DNA of 64,000 nt from Chryseosolibacter histidinae (GTDB lineage Bacteria; Bacteroidota; Bacteroidia; Cytophagales; Cyclobacteriaceae). Location of the stretch: assembly GCF_018598225.1 (NCBI RefSeq), contig NZ_JAHESF010000018.1, positions 62,001 to 126,000 on the forward strand. The letters are read 5' to 3'. Position numbers and translations under genes: made by a program. Below the pieces are notes generated by a model. It was not told the origin of the DNA, made no database searches, and saw nothing but the letters and a program-made list of their open reading frames with translations. Below are positions 26,714 to 53,307 of this stretch, piece by piece (position 1 is the first letter of the stretch; the number at the start of each line of letters is the position of its first letter).

Positions 26714-26748
26714 GGGCGGTTTAGATGTGAGATTGGAGATTAAGACAG

Positions 26749-26950
26749 AGTCCACAGTCCATGGTCGATGGTCCATAGCAGCGTATGTGATTGTCGAGGA
26801 TGCGGGTCATGGTATCGGTTTAAAGTTATGATAAGGTTAAGTTAAAATTAAGTGCGACAATTCACATTTAACGCTTTCGTGTGAGCAGAACACGTAAATT
26901 GCCCATAGCGTCACCGCCGTGGACTATCGACCATGGACTATGGACTGTCT
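26749..26950. repeat. Family A inverted repeat pair
   Basis: Left arm 26749-26778 (AGTCCACAGTCCATGGTCGA and on) and right arm 26918-26950 (GTGGACTATCGACCATGGAC and on) are inverted copies about 140 nt apart. The right arm encodes the last residues (QSIVHGR) and the TAG stop of the AraC-type gene. Confidence 0.75.
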
Positions 26951-29047: not shown

Positions 29048-29095
29048 TGCAATAAAACTATCCATCTTTCTCATTAACCTCAAACCCTTACTGTT

Positions 29096-30265
29096 ATGAT
29101 CAAGATCATTTTACTGAGCGACTTTTCGGAAGAGTACAGTAAAAACCTGCTCCGGGGAATTACGCGGTACTCGAAAGATCACGGTCCCTGGACATTCTGC
29201 CGGATGCCTGCCTATTACCGCGAAACGATCGGGATAGACGGCATCCTGGAGTGGGCCAAAGGCTGGGAAGCTGATGGCATCATCGGGCAGTTCCACAATG
29301 CCGAAGAAGCCTGGAAGTTCACACAAGCCAAAATGCCCGTGATCGCGCAGGACTTCAAAGAAAGATTTGAAGACATCCCCAACATCACCGGCGCCTATCA
29401 TGAAACGGGAAGGCTGGCGGCGGACTACTTTCTGAAAAAGGGATTCAAGAATTTTGCTTTTTACGGTCTTAAGAATACGGTCTGGTCACGTGAGCGTGCC
29501 GAAGGCTTTGAAGAAAGGGTGAACGAGGCCGGCTACAAAGTTGACTATTTCGAGCGCCAGCACTCGCGTTCGGAGGATCTTTATCATTACAAACCATCGG
29601 CGTTGACGCGCTGGCTCAAGTCGCTGCCGAAACCCATCGCGCTGATGGCCTGCGACGACAACCAGGCCTACCACGTGGCCGAAGCCAGCCGCCACTTCAA
29701 CATCCGCATACCGGAAGAGATCGCACTGCTGGGCGTTGACAACGACGAAATGCTCTGCGAGCTTTCGGACCCGCCCATCTCCAGCATCGGCCTCGACACC
29801 GAACGAAGCGGCTACGAAGCTGCCGCGCTCATGGAACAAATGATCGCACGCAAGCAAGGCACGTTCAAAGACGTGGTGGTAAAACCCACACAAGTGGTCA
29901 GTCGTATGTCGACAGATATCTTTGCCAGCACCGACAAGTACATCGTCAGCGCGCTGAAGTACATCCATGAAAACCTCGACAAGAATCTGAAAGTAGACCA
30001 GGTGCTGAAAGAAGTTCCGCTCTCCCGGAGATCGCTCGAAAAACGTTTTGTACAAATCACAGGATACCCGGTATACGAATACATTTACAACCAGCGGATC
30101 GAAAAATTCACACAAAAGCTGCTCGAGACCGACATGACCATCTTCGAGATCGCCCTCGACCTCGGCCTCAACGACAGCAAGAACATCGCCCGACAGTTTA
30201 AGCAGATCAAGGGATTAACACCGGTGGAGTATAGGAAGAAGTATGTTTTGAGTAACAGGGGGTGA
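29096..30265 (+). CDS. XylR-like regulator: LacI-type sensor domain with AraC helix-turn-helix
   Basis: 389 residues. Residues 1-270 form a periplasmic-binding-protein-like sugar sensor (IILLSDFSEEYSKNLLRGITRYSKDHG, GWEADGIIGQF, RLAADYFLKKGFKNFAFYG, GVDNDEMLCELSDPPISSIGLD). Residues 285-388 are an AraC-type DNA-binding domain (LKVDQVLKEVPLSRRSLEKRFVQITG, MTIFEIALDLGLNDSKNIARQFKQIKGLTPVEYRKKY). This is the XylR architecture. It lies 48 bp downstream of nanA and is likely to sense a related sugar and control this locus. Such regulators bind direct repeats spaced by two helical turns, the geometry of the operator-like sites at 45.8-47.0 kb. Confidence 0.9.
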   Translation: MIKIILLSDFSEEYSKNLLRGITRYSKDHGPWTFCRMPAYYRETIGIDGILEWAKGWEADGIIGQFHNAEEAWKFTQAKMPVIAQDFKERFEDIPNITGAYHETGRLAADYFLKKGFKNFAFYGLKNTVWSRERAEGFEERVNEAGYKVDYFERQHSRSEDLYHYKPSALTRWLKSLPKPIALMACDDNQAYHVAEASRHFNIRIPEEIALLGVDNDEMLCELSDPPISSIGLDTERSGYEAAALMEQMIARKQGTFKDVVVKPTQVVSRMSTDIFASTDKYIVSALKYIHENLDKNLKVDQVLKEVPLSRRSLEKRFVQITGYPVYEYIYNQRIEKFTQKLLETDMTIFEIALDLGLNDSKNIARQFKQIKGLTPVEYRKKYVLSNRG

Positions 30266-30269
30266 GAAG

Positions 30270-31626: not shown

Positions 31627-31678
31627 CGATGGTCGTTTTAACCGTTTCGTTTTATTTAACTCCTTCGTTTTATTTTTA

Positions 31679-31774: not shown

Positions 31775-31805
31775 ATGGGGTTAGGATTGAAGTTGATGGC
31801 GACGT

Positions 31806-33044: not shown

Positions 33045-33048
33045 TGTT

Positions 33049-35249: not shown

Positions 35250-35264
35250 TCCGGCAACCATGGG

Positions 35265-36113: not shown

Positions 36114-36114
36114 G

Positions 36115-37476: not shown

Positions 37477-37488
37477 GGTGTTGTTAAT

Positions 37489-37602
37489 AGTTGACAGTTG
37501 ACAATAAAACAATTGACAAAATATTGTTCATAAATAAAGTACTTCGCTCTTAAAAATTAAACCCCGCTCTTTGTCAATTGCTATTTTGTCAATTGTCAAC
37601 TT
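37489..37602. repeat. TTGACAGTTGACAAT inverted pair (family D)
   Basis: Left arm 37489-37522 (AGTTGACAGTTGACAAT) and right arm 37570-37602 (TTGTCAATTGTCAAC) lie between the ceramidase-like gene stop and the PqaA gene start. The same family recurs at 47059-47183. Confidence 0.7.
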
Positions 37603-37616
37603 AGAGCGCAGTCTTC

Positions 37617-38876
37617 TTACCGTGCACTCAGCTCCCCAAGCCATTGCAACACTTCACTCATATAAATCTCCCCCGTCATTTCACCCAGGCTGGTACGGCT
37701 TACGTAATCGTAACGTTTAAAACTGTTAAAGTCAACTTTTGTGAGCATATAACCGAATGCATCGTTGGTTAATCCGAAAAGAAAAGCGTGGTTGGTGCCC
37801 ATGTTGCGTTTCACATAGAATCCGATGTTGGGCAACGCTTCACCGGGGATGGTAAGCACTTTCGCGGTTCCGATGGCAAGATAGTTCAGGCGTGTCGTCA
37901 CCACGTTGTCTTTGAATTGCGTGATCTTCACGGGCGAGTTCTTCAGGATGAAACGCATCATCTCTGAATCGACCGGAAAATCGATCTCACGTGCAGCACA
38001 GAAAAGCGCCGGATCTTTTTGGACCTCCGCGGTCTCCACGATCCGCAGTGCTTCATCCGCCAGCAGGTTCCCGATGCGGATACATTCTTCCCAGGTGTTC
38101 GCTTCCTTTCCATCCTCCAGCCTCACATCGGCTGTGACCATGCCACCCTGCGCGCCGTTCATAAAGATGGCCACACCTCCTGTTCGCTGCTCGATGCGTT
38201 CATACAACGGACCGCACAGATCAGGACTCAAAATACCGCGACCTGAACCGATGACCTCCGGATGAATAGCGTAGTTGACGAGCGTAACAATTGGTTTTCC
38301 TTTGTTCTTGCCTGTTTCAGCGATGGCCTGGATCACACCACACCTTGGGTCGTAAAGCTGTTCTGCGTAATAGTTGTAAGCGATCTTGCCCTTCGCATCG
38401 CCCACCGCGATCTTCAGAGAAACGGGCGCCAGCCTGCTCACAGCTTCATCAACGGCGGCAGCGATCTGCTTCACACACCAGTCCAGGTATGGAAGGTCAG
38501 CCAATGATTTTCCGTTCTCGTCCGGGAAGCCATACGCGTCTGGTGCGCTGTGGGTGTGCGTGGCGCCGATCAGGATGTTTTCGGCAGGAATACTTTTGAT
38601 CAGTGCCCTGGACCGGTCGCCCAAAGCGGAGGTCCATCCGAGATTGTCAACACTCACAATGGCGATGCGCACGTTTCCTTTTTCAAACACCATCGCCCGC
38701 GCGTAAAGGTCGCCTTTCTTTTCAGTTGTCTTCTTCGGTTTACCTACACCTCCTGACACCGGAAGCAATGGGTCGGGTGTGATCACACGCACGGCAGCAC
38801 CGGCTTTCATTACCTGCGCATCAGCACCGAATGGCAGCAGGATCAGTAGGAGCCCGAATATTAGTGCAGTTTTCAT
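37617..38876 (-). CDS. Exported protein with neutral/alkaline ceramidase N-terminal domain
   Basis: 419 residues with a signal peptide ending near GADAQ. It carries the ceramidase-type metal site (ILIGATHTHSAPDAYG, with a further VNYAIHPEVIG His). The catalytic serine region normally reads GDVSPN-like; here the equivalent stretch is NGAQGGMVTADV, with Thr in place of Ser. The protein is also shorter than bacterial ceramidases of about 650 residues. It is therefore probably not a true ceramidase but a related amide or ester hydrolase. It is upstream of the PqaA operon in the same orientation. Confidence 0.78.
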   Translation of the reverse strand: MKTALIFGLLLILLPFGADAQVMKAGAAVRVITPDPLLPVSGGVGKPKKTTEKKGDLYARAMVFEKGNVRIAIVSVDNLGWTSALGDRSRALIKSIPAENILIGATHTHSAPDAYGFPDENGKSLADLPYLDWCVKQIAAAVDEAVSRLAPVSLKIAVGDAKGKIAYNYYAEQLYDPRCGVIQAIAETGKNKGKPIVTLVNYAIHPEVIGSGRGILSPDLCGPLYERIEQRTGGVAIFMNGAQGGMVTADVRLEDGKEANTWEECIRIGNLLADEALRIVETAEVQKDPALFCAAREIDFPVDSEMMRFILKNSPVKITQFKDNVVTTRLNYLAIGTAKVLTIPGEALPNIGFYVKRNMGTNHAFLFGLTNDAFGYMLTKVDFNSFKRYDYVSRTSLGEMTGEIYMSEVLQWLGELSAR

Positions 38877-38883
38877 AGCGGAT

Positions 38884-38952
38884 GCAAGGTACGGGGGTAC
38901 AAGGTACGAGGTACGATCCCGATAGCTATCGGGAACGAGGTACGCCAGTACT
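38884..38952. repeat. GGTACGA-word repeat with 18-bp palindrome (family B)
   Basis: Words GGTACGGGGGTAC, AAGGTACGAGGTACGA surround palindrome TCCCGATAGCTATCGGGA at 38917-38934. The block 38909-38944 is identical to 18721-18756. It sits in the promoter-proximal region of the ceramidase-like gene. Confidence 0.75.
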
Positions 38953-38992
38953 TACCAAAGGTATCGTAACAGGATTCGTGTCGTTCTCACAC

Positions 38993-39019
38993 ATAGCGTT
39001 TTTTAAAGGTCAAAATGCG
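38993..39019. promoter_or_regulatory. Degenerate 21-bp-spaced GCG site, possible fourth operator copy
   Basis: ATAGCG at 38993 and AATGCG at 39014 have exact 21-bp spacing. The context GGTCAAAATGCGCAA resembles CGTCAATTTGCGCAA at 47038. It is 117-143 bp upstream of the ceramidase-like gene. Weak on its own. Confidence 0.25.
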
Positions 39020-39049
39020 CAATGCTAAAAACGTCCGATATTGACCTTG

Positions 39050-39066
39050 AACCCTTTCAGGGTTCG
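39050..39066. repeat. GAACCCT-TTC-AGGGTTC hairpin (family J)
   Basis: Perfect 7-bp stem with a 3-nt loop, 18 bp past the end of the purple-acid-type phosphatase gene; possible terminator for that gene. Confidence 0.5.
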
Positions 39067-39084
39067 GAGCGCGATATTGTTGAA

Positions 39085-40479: not shown

Positions 40480-40566
40480 GTGTGTCTCAAAAAAGTAAAT
40501 GTAGGGTATTTAAAAAAAATAGCGGAGAACGGTCTCCGCTATTCACATATTCATAACATAGGCTTA

Positions 40567-42210
40567 TTACCACGGCTTGTTTGTACCTTGCAGCACCCAG
40601 GGTTTGGACCATGCGCTGTTTTGACCGTCGGCTTGTGAGTAGGAAGTCACTTCCAGCCTGTCCATCGCTGCCCTTGTATTGGCCTCGTTCAGCTGCAGCT
40701 CATCGCGACCATAGTAAAATCTTACGGGAAGCTTCTGGCGTTTGGCCACAGGGCCGGCCTGCAGGTCGGGTAAGCCGGTGCGTCTGTAATCGAACCATGC
40801 CTCTGCTGCAGCGGTCCAGCTCGCGATCCACTTCTGCTGGATCAACTGCTCTAATGTTCCGTTGTAGACCACACCTGGTTCCAGGATGTACGTGGCATAC
40901 GATGCGCCGACACCCCATGCCTTCAGCGATTCTTCGATACCTTTCTTGTAATAGGTTTCAGCAACGCCAACAGCCCAGCCCTTCTGTGCGGCTTCCGCCA
41001 GTATAAAGTTCACTTCCGCGGCAGAACACAATCTTGCCTTCAACAGCGGATCTTTTGATTTTTTATAAATATCGGTCAGACCTGAAACGTGGGGATTGAG
41101 CTCACCCTGATTTGGCGTGGGATTCAGGTTATAAGCTGCAGGTAGCGCCGATGTTGCAACGGGAAGGCCAACATAATCGGGATCGGTATCGACCACAGCG
41201 TTTCCTACTTTATCAGGCGACAAATAACGTTTTCCGTTCTGGATCTTGTCAGTACCTGCTGGCAGGCTGGCATCCACCACCAAGGGGATAGAGACTTTCT
41301 TAACCCAGACGGGAAGACGGGGGTCTTTCAATGCCTGCAACGTATTCACAAATGGCTCCGCCACTTCGAGTCTGGTATAGTTGGTAGGATCATTGCCGAA
41401 CTCCGCTGCAGTGGGCCATGATGTATCGAGGCTTGTACCAGCATATGCCATGGCGGCGTCATCGCTGGCACTGGTAATGATCGGATACGTTGCAGGGTCT
41501 CCCACAATCTTCTCGATGCCTGCCTTTGACTCTACGGGCTTTTTAGATGAGATTCTCATATAATATCGCAGTGCAAGCGAGTTGGCCAATTTTCTCCACT
41601 TTGCTGGGTCACCAGCATAGAGCAGGTCCACATTGTTGTCTATGCCGCTATATTCACTTTTTGATTTTGACAACAACGTATTGGCGGCTTCAAGATCTTC
41701 AAGGATACCCATATAAATGGTCTCCTGCGAGTCGAACACAGGTTGAAGGTTTTCGGCGCCACCTTTTGAGCCTTTCAGTGCGCTCTTGTACGGCGCATCA
41801 CCCCAGAGATCAGTGATGAGTCCGAACATCATGGCCCTGATCACAAGTGACACTCCCTGGTGAAATTCCATTTTCATTTCTATCGCACGATCGTGCAGTA
41901 GCTGGTTATTTCTCAGCACATCGTAGTAGCTGTTCCAGTCCTGGCTTCCGCCCCAGTCGTACCCGTTGTGGGCGCTGGCCCATCCGTTCTTCTGCGTATG
42001 CTGCATCACGCCCGCGATGTCCTGATAACCGAGGTTGACAACCCTGATACCGGTTTCACTGATTACCGTGGGCATCACGAGGTTGGGATGCACCAGCTGC
42101 GTCTGCAGGCCGTTGGGATCCACGTTTGTTTCAGTCAGGTCTTCACAGGCAAACAGCAGTGAAGCCGTCATCAAACAACAAGCTATAAATTTCTTATTCA
42201 CGATTTTCAT
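40567..42210 (-). CDS. SusD/RagB-family nutrient-binding lipoprotein
   Basis: 547 residues with a lipoprotein signal (MKIVNKKFIACCLMTASLLFAC, Cys22). SusD_2-type features include TPR-like helices (LLHDRAIEMKMEFHQGVSLVIRAMMFGLITDLWGDAPYKSAL), the KWRKLANSLALRYYMRIS helix, LCSAAEVNFILAEAAQKGW and a C-terminal WFDYRRTGLPDLQ. It forms the cell-surface lid over the SusC barrel encoded 20 nt upstream. The bound substrate is unknown; the GH20 enzyme and ROK kinase nearby suggest amino-sugar glycans. Confidence 0.95.
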   Translation of the reverse strand: MKIVNKKFIACCLMTASLLFACEDLTETNVDPNGLQTQLVHPNLVMPTVISETGIRVVNLGYQDIAGVMQHTQKNGWASAHNGYDWGGSQDWNSYYDVLRNNQLLHDRAIEMKMEFHQGVSLVIRAMMFGLITDLWGDAPYKSALKGSKGGAENLQPVFDSQETIYMGILEDLEAANTLLSKSKSEYSGIDNNVDLLYAGDPAKWRKLANSLALRYYMRISSKKPVESKAGIEKIVGDPATYPIITSASDDAAMAYAGTSLDTSWPTAAEFGNDPTNYTRLEVAEPFVNTLQALKDPRLPVWVKKVSIPLVVDASLPAGTDKIQNGKRYLSPDKVGNAVVDTDPDYVGLPVATSALPAAYNLNPTPNQGELNPHVSGLTDIYKKSKDPLLKARLCSAAEVNFILAEAAQKGWAVGVAETYYKKGIEESLKAWGVGASYATYILEPGVVYNGTLEQLIQQKWIASWTAAAEAWFDYRRTGLPDLQAGPVAKRQKLPVRFYYGRDELQLNEANTRAAMDRLEVTSYSQADGQNSAWSKPWVLQGTNKPW

Positions 42211-42230: not shown

Positions 42231-45200
42231 TTAAAAAGTTACTCCTAACTTGAAACCGATAGGCATTACCCAGGGCGTTACATTGTAACGTTCGATGCCC
42301 TGCTTCATCTGCACGCCTCCACCCTGTGTAGTAGACTCTTGCTGGAAAGCTGTTTCAGGGTCGATCCCGATCTTTGCGGCTGTCCAAAGCATGATGTTAC
42401 GACTGTAGATCGAAACATTGGCCGCGCTTAGTCCCAGTCTTTCTGTGATCGATGACGGCAGTGCATAGCTGAGCGATATTTCCCTGAGCTTGATGAAAGA
42501 AGCATCAAACGTAGCAGCCTTGGTGAAGTCCCACGGATAGTTGTCTGCATAAGGAATGATCTTGGTGCCGGGGCCGCCGAGGTTCTCTGTATAACCGATG
42601 ATGTTGCCATCGCCGTCGTATTCGGCGATCACACCAGGATTGAACACACCATAAGGATACGTATTGGCACCATAGGTGAAAGGGAACCCGCCATATTCGG
42701 CTGTAGGACCTCCCACAACGTTGAATCCGTTGGTTACTTTGATCAGGTCATCCGCGTTGGCGACAAGATAATCTCGCAGCTCCTGCTCGGTTCTGTTGCC
42801 GGGATTGATGAGCGTGTTGAGGAAGCGTTGCGTTTTGAAATCAGATTCTCCGTAACGGTAGGTCTGTGATACAAATTCGCCGCCCTGCCTCCAGTCAAAT
42901 GACAAACCAAGGGTGACCCTTCCATAAGTAACGGAGGTCTGCAGACCCATCAGGAAGTCGGGGTTGAAGTTACCGATCTTGTTCTTGGTATTCTTTGCGG
43001 ACACTGACTGCCACGATCCGTTGTCATCCAGGATCGGGTAGCCATAGTAAGGAGAGTTCTTGTCTTCAACGGTTACAACTTTGGCGTCATAGATATCACC
43101 GATCTTATCACCCACGTAAGTCCATGCCCCGCCTTTGGCATCTTCCCAGAAATAGAAGACAGGCATACCGGGGGCAAGCTCCTTGATCACGGACCTGTTC
43201 CGCGAGTAGTTGGCTGAGATATCCCAACGGAGCTTTCCTTTCTCCAGCGGCGTACCACCCAACGCAAACTCCACACCCCTCGACTGCACCAACCCTGCAT
43301 TGAAGATCTTGCTGCTGAATCCCGAGCTTGAAGGTATCTTATTGATCAGAACCTGGTTGCGGGTGTCATTGTTGTAGAAGCTCGCTTCGAATTTCAACCT
43401 GTTGTTGAACATCGCTACATCGATACCATATTCATACGCAGTGCTCAGCTCCGGCTTCAGATCCGGGCTCTTGAGTCCTGCAGGCTGATTGAGCCTGGGC
43501 ACTGTTCCCCAGTCCGATGATTTCTGCACGGTCTGGTAAAGATTGTAGGGATCGGTGTCATTACCAACACCTGCAATACTACCCCTGAGCTTCAACAGGT
43601 TCAGGTTATCAGAGATATTGACCATCTCGCTGATAACAGTGCTAAGGGAAACTGACGGATAAAAGTAGGACCTGTTATTTTCCGGCAAGGTGCTAGACCA
43701 ATCGTTGCGTCCGGTCACGTCGAGATAGACCATGTCCTTATAGCCTACATTCACGAGGCCATACATACTGTGCACGGCTTTCTGACCCCATGAGCTGGAA
43801 TAGGCAAGCTTGTCGCTCGCGATGTTGGAAATGCTGAACAAATTGGGGATCACCAGGCCGGCGCCATCCTTGCTCTTGTTCATGATATCCGTGGATTTGG
43901 TGAACCTCGCGTTGCCACCGACGGAAGCAGTGACACTGAATTGTCCCAATGCTTTCTTATAGGTAGCCAGGAAGTCCGTGTTTCGCTCGTAGCGTGTCAG
44001 CTCATTCAAACCATAAGCACCATTACGCTCCTTGATATATCCGCTGGTGATCTTGGTCTCGCGCCGTTCCTTATATGTATCGAGTCCATACCGGGCCATG
44101 AAGCTGAACTCGGGTGTGATCTGCCATTCAGCTTTAACGTTTCCATACATGCGGTCGCGCACAAAGCCGTTGTTCACTTCGTAGGCCATGTAATACGGGT
44201 TGTTGTAGTTCACGGCGCCATCCTGCGTACGCTGCTGCACACCCTCCATACCCTTAACCCAATAATCCTTCAGCTCGCGGATATCGATGTGGGGAGAAAC
44301 AGCATAAGCCCACTGCATGGGATTGGTACCACGGTTGCCGGCAGGACGGTTGTTGGAATTGCTCCTGGTGAAATCAATGTTGGCACTCACCGTAACTTTC
44401 TCATGCGCCTTTACCGAAGTGTTCAAACCCAGTGAGTTCCTGAAAAGATCCGCGTTCGGAATGATACCCTTATTGGTCATATTGGTGTACGACAACCTAT
44501 ACGAGCCCAGCTGCGAGGCGCTGGCAAGTGAAACACTGTTCGTGGAAGTAATGCCAGTCTGAAAGAAGTTCTTGATATTATCAGGATGCGATACCAGTGG
44601 TGTGGGGATCGGGTTTCCATTGGCATCTTTGGGACTATTCCACTGCACGGCATTGTACCCTTTGTCCAGCTCAGGCCCCATACCTCCTGATGATTTTTCA
44701 TCGATAACGAGCACGCCACCAGGATAAGGATTCTTATCGGGTGTAAAGGGCAGGATACCTGTGGCAAACTTGCTGTGCATATCCAGGAACTTATAAGGAA
44801 TATCGAACACGGTGTTTGATGACACTGACACGGTGGGCTTCCTTGCAGTGCTTCCATTTTTGGTGGTAATGATCACCACACCGTTGTTGGCGCGTGAGCC
44901 ATACAGGGCCGCGGCGCTCTGGCCTTTCAACACTGAAATGCTCTCGATATTGTCAGGGTTCAAATCAGAGATGGCGTTACCGTAGTCGACACGGTTATCA
45001 GAGCCGACCTGGCTGATGTTATTGAGGGAGTTGTTCAATGGTATACCGTCGACGATAAAAAGTGGCTGGTTATCGCTGTTGAGCGAACGGGTACCACGGA
45101 TGTTCATCTTCACAGATGATCCTGCACCACCAGTTGAGTTGATGCTAACCCCCGGAAGACGGCCGGCAAGACCGTTGAGCACGTTCTCCTGCGCCACGTG

Positions 45201-45623
45201 CGTGAGATCCTCACCTTTCACTTTGCCCACGGCATATCCCAGCGAACGTTCTTCACGTTTGATGCCAAGGGCGGTCACCACCACTTCACTCAACATAGCG
45301 GTGTTAAGCTCCAGCGTAATGTCAACAACCGATCTCCCGGCAACCGATACTTCCTGTGTGTTATAACCGATGTAGCTGAACACCAGTGTAGCATCACCGC
45401 CGGCTGATAATGAAAAATTCCCGTTGACATCGGTGATGGTTCCGTTCTGTGTTCCTTTCACAAATACGTTAACACCCGGCAACGCTGTGCCGTCATCAGA
45501 CGAGGTCACTTTACCAGACACGGTGGCGTTCTGGGCCAGCACGGTGCCGGCGAGGGTCAGGGCCAGAAATAGAAACACAAAATGTTTCCATCGGTTTTTG
45601 GTTCTGTAGAAATTCAAATCCAT
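42231..45623 (-). CDS. SusC/RagA-family TonB-linked outer-membrane transporter
   Basis: 1130 residues. The signal peptide is followed by a carboxypeptidase-like CarboxypepD_reg domain (about 33-115: ATVSGKVTSSDDGTALPGVNVFVKGT). Next comes a TonB-dependent plug (about 120-245: VVVTALGIKREERSLGYAV, NIRGTRSLNSDNQPLFIVDGIPLNN) and a 22-stranded barrel with the terminal VTF. It imports an oligomer across the outer membrane with its SusD partner. No anti-sigma-interacting N-terminal extension is present, so control is not by a FecR-type pair. Two 21-bp-spaced direct-repeat sites lie in its upstream region. Confidence 0.97.
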   Translation of the reverse strand: MDLNFYRTKNRWKHFVFLFLALTLAGTVLAQNATVSGKVTSSDDGTALPGVNVFVKGTQNGTITDVNGNFSLSAGGDATLVFSYIGYNTQEVSVAGRSVVDITLELNTAMLSEVVVTALGIKREERSLGYAVGKVKGEDLTHVAQENVLNGLAGRLPGVSINSTGGAGSSVKMNIRGTRSLNSDNQPLFIVDGIPLNNSLNNISQVGSDNRVDYGNAISDLNPDNIESISVLKGQSAAALYGSRANNGVVIITTKNGSTARKPTVSVSSNTVFDIPYKFLDMHSKFATGILPFTPDKNPYPGGVLVIDEKSSGGMGPELDKGYNAVQWNSPKDANGNPIPTPLVSHPDNIKNFFQTGITSTNSVSLASASQLGSYRLSYTNMTNKGIIPNADLFRNSLGLNTSVKAHEKVTVSANIDFTRSNSNNRPAGNRGTNPMQWAYAVSPHIDIRELKDYWVKGMEGVQQRTQDGAVNYNNPYYMAYEVNNGFVRDRMYGNVKAEWQITPEFSFMARYGLDTYKERRETKITSGYIKERNGAYGLNELTRYERNTDFLATYKKALGQFSVTASVGGNARFTKSTDIMNKSKDGAGLVIPNLFSISNIASDKLAYSSSWGQKAVHSMYGLVNVGYKDMVYLDVTGRNDWSSTLPENNRSYFYPSVSLSTVISEMVNISDNLNLLKLRGSIAGVGNDTDPYNLYQTVQKSSDWGTVPRLNQPAGLKSPDLKPELSTAYEYGIDVAMFNNRLKFEASFYNNDTRNQVLINKIPSSSGFSSKIFNAGLVQSRGVEFALGGTPLEKGKLRWDISANYSRNRSVIKELAPGMPVFYFWEDAKGGAWTYVGDKIGDIYDAKVVTVEDKNSPYYGYPILDDNGSWQSVSAKNTKNKIGNFNPDFLMGLQTSVTYGRVTLGLSFDWRQGGEFVSQTYRYGESDFKTQRFLNTLINPGNRTEQELRDYLVANADDLIKVTNGFNVVGGPTAEYGGFPFTYGANTYPYGVFNPGVIAEYDGDGNIIGYTENLGGPGTKIIPYADNYPWDFTKAATFDASFIKLREISLSYALPSSITERLGLSAANVSIYSRNIMLWTAAKIGIDPETAFQQESTTQGGGVQMKQGIERYNVTPWVMPIGFKLGVTF

Positions 45624-45802
45624 GAGGTTAGTTGTTTTATGTAGACTTAATTATAGGACCTCTGTAGTATGCGGACCATTCCTGCAAATCTTCCTGCTGC
45701 TATGCTTTCACCAAAGGAATGACCTTCATCTTTACCTGCGCTTAACATTGTGTTAACCTGGCTATTCAAGATACATCTCCTTCACACACACCATGGACGC
45801 TT

Positions 45803-45829
45803 TTTGCGTTTACCGCTGCAACCTTTGCG
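45803..45829. promoter_or_regulatory. TTTGCG-N15-TTTGCG direct repeat, site 1
   Basis: TTTGCG at 45803 and 45824, exactly 21 bp apart, inside the 39-bp block 45796-45834 that begins GACGCTTTTTGCG and ends TTTGCGTCGAA. It lies about 180-205 bp upstream of the susC start. The geometry suits an AraC/XylR-type or hybrid two-component regulator. Confidence 0.6.
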
Positions 45830-45997
45830 TCGAAAACAGGCATCGGAAATTGGGACGTGCCCTACGCGTTGAATTCCTAATGCCTAATTTTCTAATGACT
45901 ATTTACCGTGTGCGCCGACAGCGGGCTTAGGGCTGTCGTGGTAAGCCAGGTTTTTCTTAATTAAATCTACTGGTTCGGAGGTCGGGAAAAGACGCTT

Positions 45998-46024
45998 TTT
46001 GCGCTAACGATTTCGGTATTTGCG
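45998..46024. promoter_or_regulatory. TTTGCG-N15-TTTGCG direct repeat, site 2
   Basis: TTTGCG at 45998 and 46019, 21 bp apart, in block 45991-46029. Its ends are identical to site 1, 195 bp away, while the middle differs. It lies between the ROK gene end and susC. Confidence 0.6.
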
Positions 46025-46035
46025 TCGAAGGGAGA

Positions 46036-46085
46036 GTCGTCGGACCACTGCGCCACAGGCAGCGCGCAGCCAGTGGTCTGACGAC
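46036..46085. terminator. 50-nt hairpin element (family E), second copy
   Basis: Arms GTCGTCGGACCACTG (46036-46050) and CAGTGGTCTGACGAC (46071-46085) are identical to those at 5284-5333. The loop is again 20 nt but of different sequence, partly resembling the inverted loop of the first copy. It lies just 3' of the ROK kinase gene, as expected for a terminator. Confidence 0.6.
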
Positions 46086-46094
46086 GTGCAGCGA

Positions 46095-46955
46095 TCAAAG
46101 AACGTTGACAGAAACCGCATCTTCATCCCTGATCAGGGCGGCGGCGCCGAGGAGCGCGATGTTCTCACTCTCCGATTGTAATATTTTAAGCCGTTTGATG
46201 GACTCGGGGAAAGTAAAATCTTCGAGGGCGCGGAACATGGCTGTGGCAAAGAACTTATACGCTTTTGCAAGGGAGCCACCGATGACGATCGCCTCCGGGT
46301 CATAGGCATAAGCCACGGTCTTTACCGCGTGACCGATGTGGCCTCCAAATTCTTTCCAGCTCTCCAGCGCAGCAACATCGCCTTCGATGGCCTGCTGATG
46401 TGCTGTCTCGGCAGTCATGTTGTAAAACACTTTGAAGAAGTTTCCGCTGGCGTAGTATTCAATGTTTTGGTCACGATAGCCGATCAGGCCCACCTCGCCG
46501 GCGCCGCAATTGTTTCCGAGAAAAAGCTCGTTGTTGATGATAATACCGGTTCCGAGACCCGTGCCCGAAGCCATGCCCACAACGGTTTTCATGCCCTTCA
46601 CCAGTCCATACCGGTGCTCGCCGAGGATAAAACAATTGACGTCGTTGTTGACGACCACCTGCATTTTGAACGCGTCTTCCAGGATACTTTTCAGCGGCAC
46701 CCGCTCCCACGAAGGAATGTTGGCAACGTTGAACACGATACCGTTCTCGACATCGACCACGGACGGAACACCGATACCGATGCCTTTCACGGCTGGTGTA
46801 ACAAGCGGCCTGATGACATCAATAAGCTGGATCAGGGTAGCATCGAGCGACTCCCGGTTATTCAACAAATGTTTTCTCTGATGTGAGAGCACACCATTGG
46901 GAGCCACCAGCCCCGCCCTTACATTGGTACCGCCCAGATCAACACCTATGACCAT
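46095..46955 (-). CDS. ROK-family kinase
   Basis: 286 residues. Phosphate-1 motif MVIGVDLGGTNVRAGL, catalytic Asp in VVVNNDVNCFILGEH, phosphate-2 motif GMASGTGLGTGIIIN, adenosine motif PEAIVIGGSLAKAYKF. The zinc-binding CxCGxxGC loop is missing: the region reads AGEVGLIGYRDQNIEYYASG. Likely a cytoplasmic hexokinase-type enzyme acting on a sugar imported through the neighbouring SusCD pair, such as glucose or N-acetyl amino sugars. Its own upstream region carries a 21-bp-spaced TTTGCG site shared with susC. Confidence 0.87.
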   Translation of the reverse strand: MVIGVDLGGTNVRAGLVAPNGVLSHQRKHLLNNRESLDATLIQLIDVIRPLVTPAVKGIGIGVPSVVDVENGIVFNVANIPSWERVPLKSILEDAFKMQVVVNNDVNCFILGEHRYGLVKGMKTVVGMASGTGLGTGIIINNELFLGNNCGAGEVGLIGYRDQNIEYYASGNFFKVFYNMTAETAHQQAIEGDVAALESWKEFGGHIGHAVKTVAYAYDPEAIVIGGSLAKAYKFFATAMFRALEDFTFPESIKRLKILQSESENIALLGAAALIRDEDAVSVNVL

Positions 46956-47022
46956 GCCTTGTTTGTGATTAAATGAATATACAAAACAAATCTATCGTCC
47001 GCCGGTAATGGCCACTGAAAAC

Positions 47023-47049
47023 TTTGCGTCTTATAAACGTCAATTTGCG
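47023..47049. promoter_or_regulatory. TTTGCG-N15-TTTGCG direct repeat, site 3
   Basis: TTTGCG at 47023 and 47044, again exactly 21 bp apart, 68-94 bp upstream of the ROK kinase start. Sharing this arrangement with two sites upstream of susC suggests a common regulator for the kinase and the SusCD operon. Confidence 0.6.
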
Positions 47050-47058
47050 CAAGAAAAT

Positions 47059-47183
47059 AGTTGACAGTTGACAATGGGCAGTTGACAACAGTTGGAGTAA
47101 CCGTCACGACCTTCCTCCGATTCGAAGGATACCCTTGAACATCACAGATCCTTTGTCAATTGTTTATTTGTCAATTGTCAATT
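47059..47183. repeat. TTGACAGTTGACAAT inverted pair (family D)
   Basis: Left arm 47059-47095 (AGTTGACAGTTGACAAT, CAGTTGACAACAG) and right arm 47152-47183 (TTTGTCAATTG, TTGTCAATTGTCAATT). It lies between the GH20 gene 3' end and the ROK gene start. Confidence 0.7.
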
Positions 47184-47193
47184 TTCTTTTAGC

Positions 47194-49788
47194 TCACTTG
47201 TCTACCTTAACAACCCGACTCCCCCTCCCCGCTGCATCAAAACATTTCAGCATCACAGGGCTTGCCACGGAAACAGGGCCTTCGTAAACTGCCGAGCGGG
47301 CATCCGGTTCGCTGCCGTCGAGGGTGAAACGGATGGTGAGGCCGGGATATTCAACGTTCGCTTTCAGCATACCGTCTGCGACGATCGCGCCAGGCGGTGG
47401 TATGCGATAGTTATATCCACCGTGAAGGTAATTCAGCCGCGGAAGCTCCCGCGTTCCCAGCGTGTTGGCAAATACATTCCATTCGCGGTCCATGGAAGCT
47501 TCGCGTTTTGCCTGGTCAGGGAGGGTCTCCCATTCACGCGCGGGCGACCATGCACTTTCTGAAAACCCGATAAGCTTGGGCAGCATATAGTATTCCACCA
47601 TCTCGCGGCCTTTGATGGTCTCGCTCCACAGCTGTGCTTCAACTCCCAGGATGTTCTTGCGTGCCTCCGGTTTCAAACGCTCCTTGTCGGCGTATACTTT
47701 GTCCATATCGATCTCGCGTCCCATCGAATTCTCAGGCGTAGTGATGAACATATCGTAGGGCGCAAAGGTCCAGGCATCGCGGGTATCCACAAAACCAGCC
47801 CAGTACAGTCCCGGCTCCTTCGGGTCCTTGTTGTGGGCGAGGTCGAAATAAAAATTCGAAACGTTGCAGAGCACTATGGGATAGCCGGCATTCGCGAGCT
47901 TGTATCCGAGGTCCTGGTAATCGAACAGGTTGTTCCAGATGTAAGGAACAACATCCTGCCCTGCAAACTCGGGGTTGGGCACGTAGGTTCCTTCCGCTGT
48001 TTTCAGGATCGCTACCTCCTCCCAGCCATCTACACGCAGGTTCCGCTTCCGGAGTCTTTTGAGCAGCTCGCGGAAGAAATACACCTGTAGGTTCTTCGGG
48101 TCTTTGATCTCGGGATGATCTTTCAGCAACGCAGCGGCCATGGGCGATCCCGTCCAGGCACCTTCCGGAACTTCATCACCGCCAGCGTGGATCTCATCCA
48201 TCGGGAGTCCCGCAGCGACATACATCTTCGCGATCTCGTCAACCACCTTTTCATAAAAACGGTATGTCGACTCGCGCGCCACGCTCACCACATTATCCTG
48301 GTATCCCTGGGCCGAAAGGTATTTCGACGTATCGTTCGGGTCGATGAGCCTGTACTCATCCGCCTTCGCTTCGTCTCCTTCTTTCATGAACCGCTGATAC
48401 CGCGCTTCCATCGCCTTAATAGCCGCACGCGCGTGACCGGGGAAGTTGAGCTCGGGGATCACTTTGATGTGACGCCGTGCTGCATACCGGAGGATCTCGA
48501 TAAAATCCTCACGCGAATAATATCCGTGGCCATACCTGCCTTCCGTTTTTGCAAAAGGCCCTGATCCATAAGCGGGATGAAGCACAGGAGCGTCTTTGCC
48601 AGAAGTATGTTCACGTTGCGCTCCTACCGACGTGAGCTCCGGGAGTCCTTCGATCTCCAGCCGCCAGCCTTCATCCTCCGTGGTGTAAAACAGGAACCGG
48701 TTGATCTTATAAAACGCCAGCAGATCCAGCATGCGCAAAATGGTTTCTTTGGTCTGGAAGTTCCTGCTGACATCGAGGTGCAGGCCGCGATAACCGAAGC
48801 GCGGTGCATCCTCTACAGTCATACAGCGCAGTGAAAACGTTGGAGACTTTGTCTTGTATTGATCAAGGGGCACCAGTGAGCGCAGGCTCTGGATACCATA
48901 AAAGACTCCGGCTGCATCACTTCCTGTGACCGTGATCTCCTTGGGTGAAATTTTCAGCACATAGGCTTCCTTCTTAACGCCGCCCACACTGACATCACCC
49001 AGCTGCAGTTTGAGCGCAGGGCCTTTCGGTGTTTTGTCTGTGATGCTGAATGCAGTACCGGTGAGCGTCTCCAGCGCTTGCGCGAGGTGATCTGCCTCAT
49101 TCTTCAATGCACCTTGATAATAGATCTGAACCGCGTTGCTGACCTGAAACACGCCGGATGCTTTTCTGACCTTCACAGGCGATGGCGTGATGGGACTGAG
49201 CTGATCGTCACTAAGCTTTTGCAACTTCAGGTTGTTATTATAACTCCACGCGGGTGTCGGGATCGGCGCTTCGTCTTCGTGGCTGCGGTTGATCTGTTCA
49301 GGCGTGGTGAACGGCGTGAGCTTATAATCCGTTACTTCCGTGATCTTCTCTTCCTCTCCCCGGCTGTTATAAAAAACGAAATACAATCCAAGTGGCTGAT
49401 CGGTCTCCTTGATCACCCCTTCCGTACCGCGATAAAGGATCTCCGAGGTTTGCCCAGGGCGAAGCGAAAATGATTTATTGGGAACAAGCTTGTACCAGTC
49501 GCCATTGATGTGCTCGAGCCTGGCCGGTTGTTGTGCTGCTGTGGCAACAATGGGCCGCGGAGCCATGTTGAAGAACAGTGCCCAGTTGTTATCCGTGAGA
49601 TCGATGTCACTGCCGTTGGTGATGGTGAACTTCGCTTCGAATACGTCTTTCTGATCGGTGAAGTTGGTGATCAGCGCCCACTGTACGGCGATCTTTCCAG
49701 CGGAAGCATAATCGGTGGCAGGTTTACAACCCAACAGTGTAGTGATCAATGCGCAGCAGAATAACAGGTTCGGGAAAACTTTATTCAT
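47194..49788 (-). CDS. GH20 beta-N-acetylhexosaminidase, lipoprotein
   Basis: 864 residues with lipoprotein signal (LLGC, Cys21). An N-terminal chitobiase-type carbohydrate-binding domain lies at about 30-160. A GH20b domain is at about 195-325 (GSDAAGVFYGIQSLRSLV). The catalytic TIM barrel is at about 330-740, with FGYRGLHLDVSRNF, PELNFPGHARAAI and the catalytic pair Asp538-Glu539 in IHAGGDEVPEG. A C-terminal beta domain follows. It removes terminal GlcNAc or GalNAc with substrate-assisted catalysis at the cell surface or in the periplasm. It lies 9 nt downstream of the acyltransferase-like gene, so the two are co-transcribed. Confidence 0.96.
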   Translation of the reverse strand: MNKVFPNLLFCCALITTLLGCKPATDYASAGKIAVQWALITNFTDQKDVFEAKFTITNGSDIDLTDNNWALFFNMAPRPIVATAAQQPARLEHINGDWYKLVPNKSFSLRPGQTSEILYRGTEGVIKETDQPLGLYFVFYNSRGEEEKITEVTDYKLTPFTTPEQINRSHEDEAPIPTPAWSYNNNLKLQKLSDDQLSPITPSPVKVRKASGVFQVSNAVQIYYQGALKNEADHLAQALETLTGTAFSITDKTPKGPALKLQLGDVSVGGVKKEAYVLKISPKEITVTGSDAAGVFYGIQSLRSLVPLDQYKTKSPTFSLRCMTVEDAPRFGYRGLHLDVSRNFQTKETILRMLDLLAFYKINRFLFYTTEDEGWRLEIEGLPELTSVGAQREHTSGKDAPVLHPAYGSGPFAKTEGRYGHGYYSREDFIEILRYAARRHIKVIPELNFPGHARAAIKAMEARYQRFMKEGDEAKADEYRLIDPNDTSKYLSAQGYQDNVVSVARESTYRFYEKVVDEIAKMYVAAGLPMDEIHAGGDEVPEGAWTGSPMAAALLKDHPEIKDPKNLQVYFFRELLKRLRKRNLRVDGWEEVAILKTAEGTYVPNPEFAGQDVVPYIWNNLFDYQDLGYKLANAGYPIVLCNVSNFYFDLAHNKDPKEPGLYWAGFVDTRDAWTFAPYDMFITTPENSMGREIDMDKVYADKERLKPEARKNILGVEAQLWSETIKGREMVEYYMLPKLIGFSESAWSPAREWETLPDQAKREASMDREWNVFANTLGTRELPRLNYLHGGYNYRIPPPGAIVADGMLKANVEYPGLTIRFTLDGSEPDARSAVYEGPVSVASPVMLKCFDAAGRGSRVVKVDK

Positions 49789-49797
49789 GCAAAGGAT

Positions 49798-50889
49798 TTA
49801 AAGTTTTATGAAGATCTTCTTCCTGTAAAGGATATACGCGGGAATGAAGTTGATGCACACGAACAGGATGGCATACAACATACTGGCCAGCTTCGGTGCC
49901 ACACCCGCAGCAATGAGCGTCAGCACGAAATGCATATTCAACGACTCACCACCGAAAGGAATGGTGTAAAAAACGATCGCAAGCAGATCGGCCAGCACAT
50001 ACACGGCAATGGCATTGGCGCCGAACACAATGCCCGGCCACGTCCACCGCGTATATTTTTTCAGATCGATAATATAATAGGCCGCACCCAGTGCAAGCGA
50101 CGCAGCACCGGCCGTCACCAGCACATAAGAGCTGGTCCAGATATTCTTGTTCAAAGGAAAAGTGAGACTCCAAACATATCCTGCGAGCACTGAAAAGAAC
50201 CCGGCTACCATCAGCAGGTTGGCCTTCTCATGCGGTTGGCGATCACTCAATAACAGCTGGCCCGCGAGCAATCCTGCGATACCCGATGCAATGGCGGGCA
50301 CTGTGCTGAGAAATCCCTCCGGATCCCAGTCACCCTGCCACATTTTTCCCGGTAAGAAAAGGCTGTCGAACCACGCGGCGAGGTTTACACCGGGATCAAG
50401 CATGGGCTGGTTGTAACCCGGTGTAGGGATCAGGGTCATCGCCAACCAGTACGCAACCAGGATCACGGCACCAATCCAGGCTTGTGTCCTAAATGATGTT
50501 TTGAGAAAAATAAAAGCACACGCCATAAAAACTATGGCGATCCGCTGCAGCACGCCGGTGACCCGGAGCTCGGCAAAATTGAAATACGGAATGAGACTCA
50601 GGAACACACCCACAGCAAAGATCTTGAGCGAACGGATCACGATCTTCTTGTACAATCCCGCCTTCGAGGTGTCTGACTCAAGGCGTTTGCTGAAGGCCAG
50701 CACAATGGAGACACCAACGATAAACAGAAAGAACGGATAGATAAAATCCGTGGGCGTAATGCCATTCCATGCTGCGTGCTCCAGCGGCTCATACACATAA
50801 CGCCAGCTTCCTGGGAAGTTCACCAGCACCATGGCTGCAATGGTAAATCCGCGGAGCGCGTCGAGGGAAATTAATCGTTGTTGTGACAT
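49798..50889 (-). CDS. Heparan-alpha-glucosaminide N-acetyltransferase-like membrane protein (DUF5009/DUF1624)
   Basis: The ATG at 50889 gives 363 residues beginning MSQQRLISLDALRGFTIAAMVLVNFPGSW; a longer frame starts in a family B repeat and is rejected. About ten membrane helices are visible. Family hallmarks are LDALRGFTIAAMVLVN, TDFIYPFFLFIVGVSIVLAF, and GFLSTVPAIASGIAGLLAGQLL. Eukaryotic relatives acetylate terminal glucosamine across the lysosomal membrane. In bacteria the reaction is unproven. Coupling to a GH20 hexosaminidase supports a role with amino sugars. Confidence 0.87.
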   Translation of the reverse strand: MSQQRLISLDALRGFTIAAMVLVNFPGSWRYVYEPLEHAAWNGITPTDFIYPFFLFIVGVSIVLAFSKRLESDTSKAGLYKKIVIRSLKIFAVGVFLSLIPYFNFAELRVTGVLQRIAIVFMACAFIFLKTSFRTQAWIGAVILVAYWLAMTLIPTPGYNQPMLDPGVNLAAWFDSLFLPGKMWQGDWDPEGFLSTVPAIASGIAGLLAGQLLLSDRQPHEKANLLMVAGFFSVLAGYVWSLTFPLNKNIWTSSYVLVTAGAASLALGAAYYIIDLKKYTRWTWPGIVFGANAIAVYVLADLLAIVFYTIPFGGESLNMHFVLTLIAAGVAPKLASMLYAILFVCINFIPAYILYRKKIFIKL

Positions 50890-50901
50890 GGACCGAGTTT
50901 T

Positions 50902-50985
50902 AAGGTACGATTTACGAGGTACGAAGTACGATTGGCTGACGCTCACACTGCACGTCCATGCACCATGGACTATCGACTATGGGCT
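50902..50985. repeat. Composite repeat: family B - linker - family A
   Basis: 50902-50932 is family B (AAGGTACGA, GAGGTACGAAGTACGA). 50935-50951 is the linker GCTGACGCTCACACTGC. 50954-50985 is family A (GTCCATGCACCATGGACTAT and on). The order matches 27981-28062. The family A part encodes the last codons and TAG stop of the following minus-strand gene. Confidence 0.75.
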
Positions 50986-53219
50986 TTCGGTTCGCTGATC
51001 ACGCCCAGGTATCGTCCCATCCAGTAGGGCAAGAGCCATATGTCGCCTGCGCTGTGCTCGGAAGTTCCGTTGTCGCCGCCGTCGAGGTGAAAGCGGTTGG
51101 CATTGTGCCGGCGGATCGCAAGCTCATCCGGTGGCAACACTTCCGTAATGGTCTGTCCCCGGAAGTTGGGTGCGATGTGCTCGATGTCTTTGCGTTCGCT
51201 GTTCTTAACGCTCCATCCGATCAGGTCGAGCGGATATTCCTGCAGGTACCAGACGGCTTCTTCCAGGTCGAAATCGCTCGCTCCCGTCATGGCTGTAACG
51301 ATATTCCACGCTCCTTCCTTTTCTGGCCGTTCGATCTCCCAATGGTCAATGATCGCCTCTCTGAACTTCGTCTTCAATGTATCATTCAAGGCGTACCGGT
51401 ATAAGCCCCAGTACCCGAGGAAGTACATTTCGTCATCGGAATGGTTCCACGCTTCCGACAACATCCGGCTCCACTCGTCCGCATCCGGTGGCGCCATGCC
51501 CACTTCTTTCATGGGCCGCATCAGGTTCTCATAGTAACCGTGCTTCGTCATCAGCTCGAAAGCCTTTTCTTTGTACACTTCCTTCTTCGTAAAGTGATAG
51601 GCGGTCTGCAGCATGGCCACGATGTTGGATGCATTGATCTTACGGTCGCCCACCATCTTCGGACGGGCATTCACATATTCCGGATTCCATTTCCCCCATA
51701 GTGTGGGCTCGCCATTCCAGTCAACAAGATACATATTGTGATCGATGATATGCTGCATCATTGAGTCGATGAGCACAATGGCCCGCTTTTTCAGGTCTGC
51801 ATCTTCGATAAGCTCGGCCATCACACCGAACGCAAAAATGTGGCCGATCGCTTCGTCGCTGCTGGTGGTTGATTTCCAATCCCACTCCGGATGACTGGCC
51901 CTTCTCCATGGCTTGTCCTCGTACTTGTAACCACGCCGTTCGAACGAGCGTGAAGGGAAACCTTTCACACCGTTTATGGTGTACAGCCGCTCCATGGCCT
52001 CCATCGATTCGCGGCAGTTCTGCAGGGCATCTTCAGATTTTGTCACGGCATACCGGAACACTTCCGCCCCGAGGTACATGGACGTCCACAGGCCGTCGTT
52101 GTCGGAATCTTCCAGTGTGCCCGTATCAACATTCCCGTCTTTCATGCCACTGATCGTACCGTTGAATCCGTGGCGGATATGCCTTTCACGCACCTGCTGC
52201 TGAAAGAATTCCGCTTTTTCATGCAGGGTCATTTCCTGGAAACAGATCTCGCCAAGGCCTTTGTCCGTGAGGATGAGTACGGAGTTGTTTCGGCCTTTGG
52301 CGATATCGATGACCTGATCGGAAGGAAGCCAGCGCTTCGAAGCATAGTAGTTGAACTTGCCATCGCGTCTCAGCATAAAAGCGCCCCGCGATGAACCGAA
52401 CCAGAGCTTTCCATCGATCTCCTCTACTGCAGTGATGTCGGTCCATGGAAGTTTCTTTTGAATGTCACCGGTCTGTTTTTTCGTTGCGGCATCAAGCCTG
52501 AAATAACCGTCGCCTGTACCAACGATGATCTCCTGGTTATTGGCGGCCAATGTAAAACACTGAAGGTCGTTTCCTTCGAATACGGGCTGCAGGGTTTTAT
52601 CTTTCCATGAGAACACCGAAAGCGCCTTATTGCCCAGCAACCAGAAGATATTCCGTGAACCGTCGAACAGGATATCGATCACGGGCTCGTCCGCATCGCC
52701 TTTCCACACCACGGTAGAATCGCTCACGTACTGCAGTGTGCGGCCATCGGAAATAAGGAAATCGAAATTTTCCCCGCCGGCAACCTGGGAAGCGCCCGAC
52801 AATGTGTGCCGCGCATAGAGATTTCCAGCCCAGGCGTTGCTCAGCACGGCTTTATCATCCACATAAACAAAATGATCGCGATATAAAGTGATACCGGCAA
52901 TTTTCTTATCACTGATGGGACGGTACGACACATCGGGCACCAGCGTGCCCGGATACAGGAGCGCCCCGGCATGTGGCCTGTACAACCCTTTCGATGTAGC
53001 GATCTGGATCACACCATTGCGATCGCAAAACACCTTGCGCAGCTTCACGCTGTCAGTAAGGTCATACTTCTTGCTGAAATCCTGTACAAAGGGCTTATCC
53101 TGATGCACCGGTTGTGTTCCATTGCTCCCGGGATCGCTACAGGAGACGATGAGGACAATAAAAAGAAGTGCAACTAAAAAAACACCAGACTTGAGAATAT
53201 TGCGGATAAACTGTTTCAT
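50970..53219 (-). CDS. Lipoprotein with N-terminal beta-propeller and C-terminal alpha/alpha-barrel domain
   Basis: The ATG at 53219 gives 749 residues with a lipoprotein signal (LLFIVLIVSC, Cys27). Residues about 45-370 show propeller-like blades resembling two-component-regulator propeller repeats (GVIQIATSKGLYRP, IDGKLWFGSSRGAFMLRRDG, NNSVLILTDKGLGEI). From about 400 an (alpha/alpha)6-barrel-like domain follows, rich in aromatic and acidic residues (GTLEDSDNDGLWTSMYLGAEVFRYAVT, SSDEAIGHIFAFGVMAEL, MLSEAWNHSDDEMYFLGYWGLYRYAL). Such barrels occur in glycoside hydrolases, lyases and epimerases. No specific family or catalytic pair was recognised. The final residues (HSR) and stop come from a family A repeat. 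Confidence 0.72.
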   Translation of the reverse strand: MKQFIRNILKSGVFLVALLFIVLIVSCSDPGSNGTQPVHQDKPFVQDFSKKYDLTDSVKLRKVFCDRNGVIQIATSKGLYRPHAGALLYPGTLVPDVSYRPISDKKIAGITLYRDHFVYVDDKAVLSNAWAGNLYARHTLSGASQVAGGENFDFLISDGRTLQYVSDSTVVWKGDADEPVIDILFDGSRNIFWLLGNKALSVFSWKDKTLQPVFEGNDLQCFTLAANNQEIIVGTGDGYFRLDAATKKQTGDIQKKLPWTDITAVEEIDGKLWFGSSRGAFMLRRDGKFNYYASKRWLPSDQVIDIAKGRNNSVLILTDKGLGEICFQEMTLHEKAEFFQQQVRERHIRHGFNGTISGMKDGNVDTGTLEDSDNDGLWTSMYLGAEVFRYAVTKSEDALQNCRESMEAMERLYTINGVKGFPSRSFERRGYKYEDKPWRRASHPEWDWKSTTSSDEAIGHIFAFGVMAELIEDADLKKRAIVLIDSMMQHIIDHNMYLVDWNGEPTLWGKWNPEYVNARPKMVGDRKINASNIVAMLQTAYHFTKKEVYKEKAFELMTKHGYYENLMRPMKEVGMAPPDADEWSRMLSEAWNHSDDEMYFLGYWGLYRYALNDTLKTKFREAIIDHWEIERPEKEGAWNIVTAMTGASDFDLEEAVWYLQEYPLDLIGWSVKNSERKDIEHIAPNFRGQTITEVLPPDELAIRRHNANRFHLDGGDNGTSEHSAGDIWLLPYWMGRYLGVISEPKAHSR

Positions 53220-53307
53220 TCCTACTAATGTATTTAACAAGAGTAGTGAAAATCAGTATTCCGTTGGACGTATTTTACGTTTATGAAGTCGTGGTTTGCG
53301 AAAGAAG

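Follow-up and report, generated by a model that had tools for sequence, protein, structure and literature searches.

Probable operators of a XylR-like regulator at a susCD locus of Chryseosolibacter histidinae and at ECF sigma genes of related Cytophagales

In the 64-kb stretch of Chryseosolibacter histidinae DNA analysed here (the window), direct repeats of TTTGCG lie upstream of a susC gene and of a gene encoding a ROK-family kinase, and their sequence and conservation make it very probable that they function as operators of the XylR-like regulator encoded at 29096. In many related Cytophagales, a site of the same type is found before a gene for an ECF sigma factor, and a single sensor–operator pair thus seems, from the genomes compared, to be wired either through a sigma relay or directly.

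The repeats and the genes they precede

An exact scan of both strands of the window located TTTGCG-N15-TTTGCG at 45803-45829, 45998-46024 and 47023-47049, all on the + strand and all at the positions given in an earlier note on this DNA; a fourth exact copy was found on neither strand. The three copies compare with an expectation of 0.04, and this number was reached in none of 100 shuffles. The 39-bp blocks with identical ends that had been noticed around the first two copies were recovered as well (45796-45834 and 45991-46029, 74 % identical overall). The susC and ROK genes and their neighbours are encoded on the - strand, so the repeats read CGCAAA-N15-CGCAAA in the direction of transcription. 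Two sites, with cores at 53274 and 38993, are additions to the original three. The putative operators are listed below.

45798..45832, - strand: site 1 of susC, CGCAAA-N15-CGCAAA, 180 bp upstream of the susC start
45993..46027, - strand: site 2 of susC, 375 bp upstream of susC and 195 bp from site 1
47018..47052, - strand: site of the ROK kinase gene, 68 bp upstream of it, with a counterpart in genomes G017 and G158
53269..53303, - strand: site with CGCAAA-N15-CGTAAA (core at 53274), which heads the g50970-NagX-GH20 unit
38988..39022, - strand: more degenerate site (core at 38993), upstream of a ceramidase-like gene

The genes and other elements to which these sites are related are the following.

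42231..45623, - strand: SusC/RagA TonB-dependent importer, assigned by domain scan, proposed target
40567..42210, - strand: SusD-like lipoprotein, directly behind susC
46095..46955, - strand: ROK-family sugar kinase, proposed target
46036..46085, - strand: strong hairpin just after the ROK gene, probable terminator (-31.7 kcal/mol, z -2.98)
50970..53240, - strand: g50970, without a Pfam match, proposed target and head of its unit
49798..50946, - strand: NagX-like transmembrane acetyltransferase, HGSNAT domain (NF046061 at 210 bits, under the cut-off of 480)
47194..49788, - strand: GH20 beta-hexosaminidase
37617..38876, - strand: ceramidase-like gene (weak Pfam match), probable target
25451..26776, - strand: MFS sugar transporter
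29096..30265, + strand: XylR-like regulator with LacI-type sugar-binding and AraC-type DNA-binding domains, proposed binder

The hairpin behind the ROK gene was equalled by only one of 200 shuffles, and because such a strong structure ends the ROK gene, susC probably has its own promoter and transcript. The g50970 protein is predicted to form a beta-propeller followed by a helical C-terminal domain (mean pLDDT 70.5), and its top Foldseek matches are the sensor propellers of HTCS proteins (3ott and 3va6), the match lists being filled by the propeller part.

Several other features of the window were observed. The region 28100-41000 contains an unusual mix of genes, encoding a NanA/DapA-like aldolase, a DegT aminotransferase, a BNR (sialidase-like) protein and two GDPD proteins, together with PhoPQ-related, ceramidase-like and purple-acid-phosphatase-like proteins. 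The gap between the ROK and GH20 genes (47060-47185) carries a second kind of intergenic repeat, in which short TTGACA/TGTCAA repeats flank about 60 bp. A TPR protein with a weak HTH/sigma-region-4-like C-terminus (57814-59412) adjoins a second SusC gene (59801-63052) and is possibly a separate regulator. There was no Rfam match in the window at the gathering threshold.

Conservation of the site and its candidate binder

Of the loci obtained by searching 59 and 390 genomes with susC, 38, among them the window's own, were scanned for the site. The exact pattern is present upstream of the orthologous susC in seven Chryseolinea-type genomes (G017, G158, G178, G198, G184, G203 and G116), each of which has one site where the window has two, and it occurs with one mismatch in Rhodocytophaga (G040). 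When eight susC upstream regions are aligned, the site stands out as the single strongly conserved block. The ROK site is exact in G017 and G158, and the g50970 site has counterparts in five other genomes (G017, G116, G158, G203, by position only, and G184, with one mismatch to the refined pattern). Counterparts of the 38993 site precede the ceramidase-like orthologue in G017 (L071 678) and, in weaker form, in G158 (L144 11141). The earlier note had named lack of conservation upstream of orthologous genes as the finding that would speak against its proposal of one regulon joining susC and ROK; the site is kept at susC, ROK and g50970 in other genomes, and this cross-genome comparison argues for the shared regulon. 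The clustering that the note expected of a genome scan was likewise observed, as the refined pattern has 29 zero-mismatch matches in the nine genomes that carry a susC site, of which 18 fall within this one locus and several of the others belong to a dispersed repeat. With up to one mismatch, counts are near those of the control (16 versus 10 in the window's genome), and G002, which has no XylR-like gene, also contains a zero-mismatch match, so that the motif alone does not define the regulon.

Two observations concern other genes. In G158, a second susC paralogue (C28:31226-34594) has an extra exact site (C28:35870-35896) about 1.3 kb before it. A weak candidate at 26868, before the MFS gene of the window, scored 4.8 in the window scan and was dropped as a site; a site-like stretch is present at the MFS orthologues of Chryseolinea (L071, L145 and L144).

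The consensus of 43 sites from other genomes, read on the coding strand, is TTGCGCAAATTGAGGATTnATATACGCAATTTGCG, which describes an operator of about 35 bp in which four boxes are conserved, at about 0, 9, 21 and 29 bp. When a matrix of these 43 sites was run over both strands of the 64 kb, the sites at 38993, 47023, 53274, 45998 and 45803 ranked first to fifth. This test left the window out for the letters of the matrix and not for the choice of sites, since 28 sigma-side sites in it had been chosen by an earlier matrix that included the window sites. The two susC sites score 10.0 and 9.0 (permuted matrices: mean 8.8, maximum 18.5) and are supported by their rank, CGCAAA core and footprint, not by matrix score. 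A matrix of 31 sites was applied to 80 XylR loci taken from named genomes and exceeded a score of 16 in 21 of them: eight are genomes with a known site, one match is intragenic (L273) and 12 are new genomes. The best matches in the latter (24.2-38.0) are all intergenic, 11 being located before ROK, MFS, SusC-like or sigma genes and one before a NagX-like gene. Control matrices passed 16 in five and one of 160 strand scans, with a maximum of 20.3. The remaining 59 loci have nothing above 16 within 10 kb.

The protein encoded at 29096 has the architecture of XylR, with Peripla_BP_3 at residues 109-273 and HTH_18 at 305-381, and its residues 4-381 align over the full length with E. coli XylR (4fe4 and 4fe7, E 3.6e-47 and 4.3e-47). 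The sites match an operator of the XylR type, in that CGCAAA words stand 21 bp apart at three window sites and are conserved. The XylR-like gene was found in 29 of the 36 genomes searched, including all nine with a susC site. Its helix-turn-helix segments are nearly identical across 13 homologues, and the presumed recognition helices, the segments of which we take from the AraC fold, are identical apart from one Ser/Thr change. No operator site was found before the XylR-like gene itself in the window. Of the 80 XylR loci, 73 have an MFS gene within reach, 61 a ROK gene, 41 a GH20 gene and 40 a NagX-like gene, neighbours which suggest that the sensed sugar is one imported by the MFS transporter and phosphorylated by the ROK kinase. 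Judging from the neighbouring genes, the ligand is probably an amino sugar rather than D-xylose.

It is conceivable, if rather unlikely, that the XylR-like protein binds these sites as a repressor that opens on ligand, or forms a loop between 45803 and 45998; the two susC sites 195 bp apart in the window speak for this. The relatives have a single susC site, however, and E. coli XylR and Vibrio XylRA are described as activators in excerpts of PMC12125979. It is still less likely that the sites are operators of another regulator, be it an HTCS, the AraC protein encoded at 26924 or an AraC protein from elsewhere in the genome. The spacing of 21 bp, taken in the earlier note as a sign of paired helix-turn-helix domains, does fit an AraC-type protein, but it is general for direct repeats read by such domains, HTCS included, predicted Bacteroides HTCS motifs having an average spacing of 21 bp (excerpts of PMC3878776). 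The AraC gene at 26924 also lies within the locus in two Chryseolinea genomes. Nevertheless, a close orthologue (at least 66 %) is present in only 3 of 30 genomes, which excludes this protein as a general binder, and six genomes with a susC site have none, their best matches being 34-40 %. As to HTCS, no kinase, receiver or response-regulator domain was found among 28 window proteins scanned, a set drawn from beyond the first 12 kb and including some of the genes of 13-20 kb. Moreover, in XylR-bearing genomes the site also precedes unlinked sigma genes.

The weakest alternative, that the susC and ROK repeats are worn copies of a dispersed repeat with no regulatory role, is largely refuted by the footprint at susC and has very little probability left. 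Such a family does exist in the window's genome (G000), where CTTTGCG units recur every 9-12 bp in intergenic DNA: close TTTGCG pairs number 94, compared with 13 for the reversed control pattern, and the exact TTTGCG-N15-TTTGCG occurs 12 times genome-wide, compared with 2. Seven of these 12 have a third TTTGCG in the gap and are members of the family, and the gap of the 45803 site resembles, by eye, the member at C28:207059. However, three of the five matches that have no third unit are the window sites, which therefore fall short of the three or more units of the family; they are kept at the same genes in other genera amid poorly alignable upstream DNA, and a matrix built on the sites of other genomes selects them. 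On the absence of a third unit and the conservation at the same genes, the window sites were rejected as members of the family. The dispersed repeat, of the kind ATGCAGTTCACGCAAAGnnCGCAAAGAAGnCGCAAAGnnCGCAAAG (for example at L017, L023 and L033), several times forms opposed pairs about 170-220 bp apart (C11:93884/94104, C32:54576/54748 and C55:11796/12007, as well as C78:122957/123158 and C111:203919/204134).

Sites at ECF sigma genes and two possible circuits

The exact pattern is not conserved at all relatives of susC: in 30 further ones, with identities of 50-61 %, no score above 16 was reached over the 700 bp that precede the start of the match (best score 10.1), and this absence led the search to sigma genes. 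Echinicola, Cyclobacterium and similar genera have the XylR-like gene and lack the susC site; in such genomes, an extended-site pattern leads to a gene for a 175-aa ECF sigma factor. TIGR02937 was above its cut-off in all three full-length proteins scanned, and TIGR02985 in one. A model of this sigma gene (A4, E 1e-35) identified a main copy in 18 of 31 genomes. At the same threshold, it had no match in any of the nine genomes with a susC site, G000 included. Four other genomes are also without it: G001 and G002 have no XylR-like gene, while G128 and G200 (88 and 85 % complete) have one, and G128 also has no susC site.

The site was found upstream of all 18 best sigma matches, without mismatch in 14, with one mismatch in three and with three in G046, the weakest (matrix score 17.8, the best shuffle reaching 11.3). 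The extended-site pattern had been drawn up from G134, G266, G113, G040, G017, G116 and G158, the rows of which are not independent; independent rows are those of Cyclobacterium, Lunatibacter, Runella, Dyadobacter, Emticicia and others. A second set comprised 25 further XylR genomes; the sigma gene is present in 20, and 19 of the 20 best copies carry the site (23.9-40.9), shuffled upstream regions reaching 15.2. Combined, with two genomes shared between the sets, the site is present at 35 of 36 sigma genes, mostly from Cytophagales. It is absent from all five second, weaker sigma copies (two in the first set and 3/3 in the second).

The distribution at susC is the reverse. Within 700 bp, the site was found at none of 16 susC genes of 15 sigma-bearing genomes (best 7.6), one more susC gene in this comparison coming from G128, without the sigma gene; it was found at all nine susC genes on the window's side (21.5-37.2), the 700-bp cut excluding the site of L238, 682 bp upstream. 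A direct ROK site is also present in five sigma-bearing genomes (L242, L260, L296, L307 and L308). Of the 59 siteless XylR loci, an unlinked sigma gene accounts only for the 11 tested and a few that match the 31-genome sigma-search set.

Cyclobacterium-type genomes have conserved blocks upstream of susC, of the kind GGTTTGGAA (L150-L157), and of ROK, the latter corresponding to a promoter-like element, TAGYCY-N16/17-GTA. In the sigma genera, this element is found upstream of the NagX-like gene in 36 of 41 cases, the figure for other genes being 27 of 376. The pattern was derived from upstream regions of Echinicola and Cyclobacterium-type genomes, so that counts there are not independent; in these genomes the element precedes 11 of 13 ROK and seven of eight g50970 genes. 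The independent counts from Runella, Dyadobacter and Emticicia are 26 of 31 for NagX, 1 of 26 for ROK and 20 of 295 for other genes. The two halves of the element are 16 or 17 bp apart in 60 of the 62 cases. On the window's side, the element was found at none of three NagX, four ROK and four g50970 genes. The reversed pattern was found at no NagX, ROK or g50970 gene in any group, and at three of seven susC genes in the Cyclobacterium group. On the sigma side itself, the element is sparse at susC (2/16), MFS (0/35) and GH20 (1/39); this rarity, together with that at the ROK genes of Dyadobacter and its kin, indicates that the sigma regulon presumably either covers fewer genes than the direct one or varies between genera. 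The relay can thus be proposed for NagX and, depending on the genus, for ROK and g50970, and the element counts do not extend it to susC itself. A frame of 310-314 aa is located just upstream of susC in six of seven Echinicola loci, and the one that was scanned encodes FecR. Gene labels in the counts for XylR loci, Echinicola loci and promoters are tblastn matches, with frames from a simple frame finder.

The following arrangement may be proposed, its binding, activation, ligand, sigma relay and direction of change being read from sequences, conservation and co-distribution. Two AraC-type monomers would sit side by side on one face of the DNA, each reading two boxes of the operator with its two helix-turn-helix motifs. 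The LacI-type domain would bind the ligand, probably an amino sugar released from an imported glycan, and the ligand-bound dimer would then activate susCD, ROK, the g50970-NagX-GH20 unit and, probably, the gene of the ceramidase-like protein. The XylR–operator pair of many related Cytophagales stands before the ECF sigma gene, the product of which would read TAGYCY-N16/17-GTA at NagX and, by genus, also at ROK and g50970; in the window's lineage, where no such sigma gene was found, the operator is located at the target genes.

That these are two interchangeable circuits across one order, a sigma relay, or direct control where the sigma gene and its promoters are missing, is a tentative reading, made slightly less probable by the lack of a visible sigma promoter at susC. 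A tree of 76 XylR-like proteins places the direct rows together on one side of a single branch (support 77), so that one switch would be enough; in this tree, L241 and L245 were labelled as sigma-bearing on the assumption that they follow their genus, and the sigma labels of L243, L249, L273, L276 and L309 were transferred from presumed matching members of the 31-genome sigma search. Rhodocytophaga joins the direct side, with the operator about 670-680 bp before susC. In G040, a small frame encoding sigma region 4 without region 2 (L149 15573-16016; tblastn E 5e-11) is located between operator and susC, and on the two-circuit reading this genome would be an intermediate. Similar remnants were sought and rejected in the window (tblastn nothing better than E 0.87) and in Rhodocytophaga aerolata L238 (nothing better than 0.97), leaving G040 as the only case.

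Relation to known regulatory systems

XylR-type operators, the 21-bp repeats of AraC-type proteins and ECF control of susC loci are already known (excerpts of PMC3878776 and PMC12125979). As in E. coli XylR and Vibrio XylRA, the regulator proposed here combines LacI-type ligand-binding and AraC-type domains over its full length, and two direct repeats in front of genes for sugar use make up the operator (PMC12125979, in excerpts). The boxes differ, as CGCAAA contains GC where the XylR/XylRA repeats are AT-rich, and so does the setting: no xylose gene occurs among the 28 window proteins scanned, the neighbours being NagX-like, GH20, ROK and MFS genes, and a sigma gene takes the place of the target in many relatives. 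The 'XylR' entry in a table of PMC3878776, as excerpted, is an NrtR-family protein.

The HTCS operators of Bacteroides thetaiotaomicron are alike in being direct repeats, at an average distance of 21 bp, for AraC-type domains, upstream of susCD and enzyme genes (excerpts of PMC3878776). In contrast, the sensor proposed here is a one-component protein with a LacI-type domain, and the 28 window proteins scanned include no HTCS. The ECF sigma/FecR anti-sigma/SusC systems of Bacteroidota resemble the relatives' arrangement in their ECF sigma factor and, in Echinicola, in the FecR gene by susC; they differ in that the relatives' sigma gene bears a XylR-type operator and in that, at E 1e-35, the sigma model finds nothing in the window's lineage. 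The NagX-like protein, MFS transporter, ROK kinase and GH20 enzyme recall NagX/NagP/NagK use of glucosamine and GlcNAc, and fitness data from five bacteria, including Echinicola vietnamensis, show NagX to be involved in glucosamine use (PMC9007349, in excerpts). Here, however, these functions are joined to a large susCD locus with phosphatase, GDPD, sialidase-like and aldolase genes.

In the open-access literature searched, neither a XylR-type regulator of this locus nor XylR control of an ECF sigma gene was found, nor a case in which a sigma gene governed by a XylR-type sensor gives way to direct control in a sister lineage. The prediction of ECF-controlled promoters is regarded as a challenging task (excerpts of PMC3878776), and the present analysis names a candidate regulator, operator and sigma promoter for an amino-sugar-type locus common to many Cytophagales. 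It further provides a natural setting in which to compare control through a sigma factor with direct control, both by one sensor.
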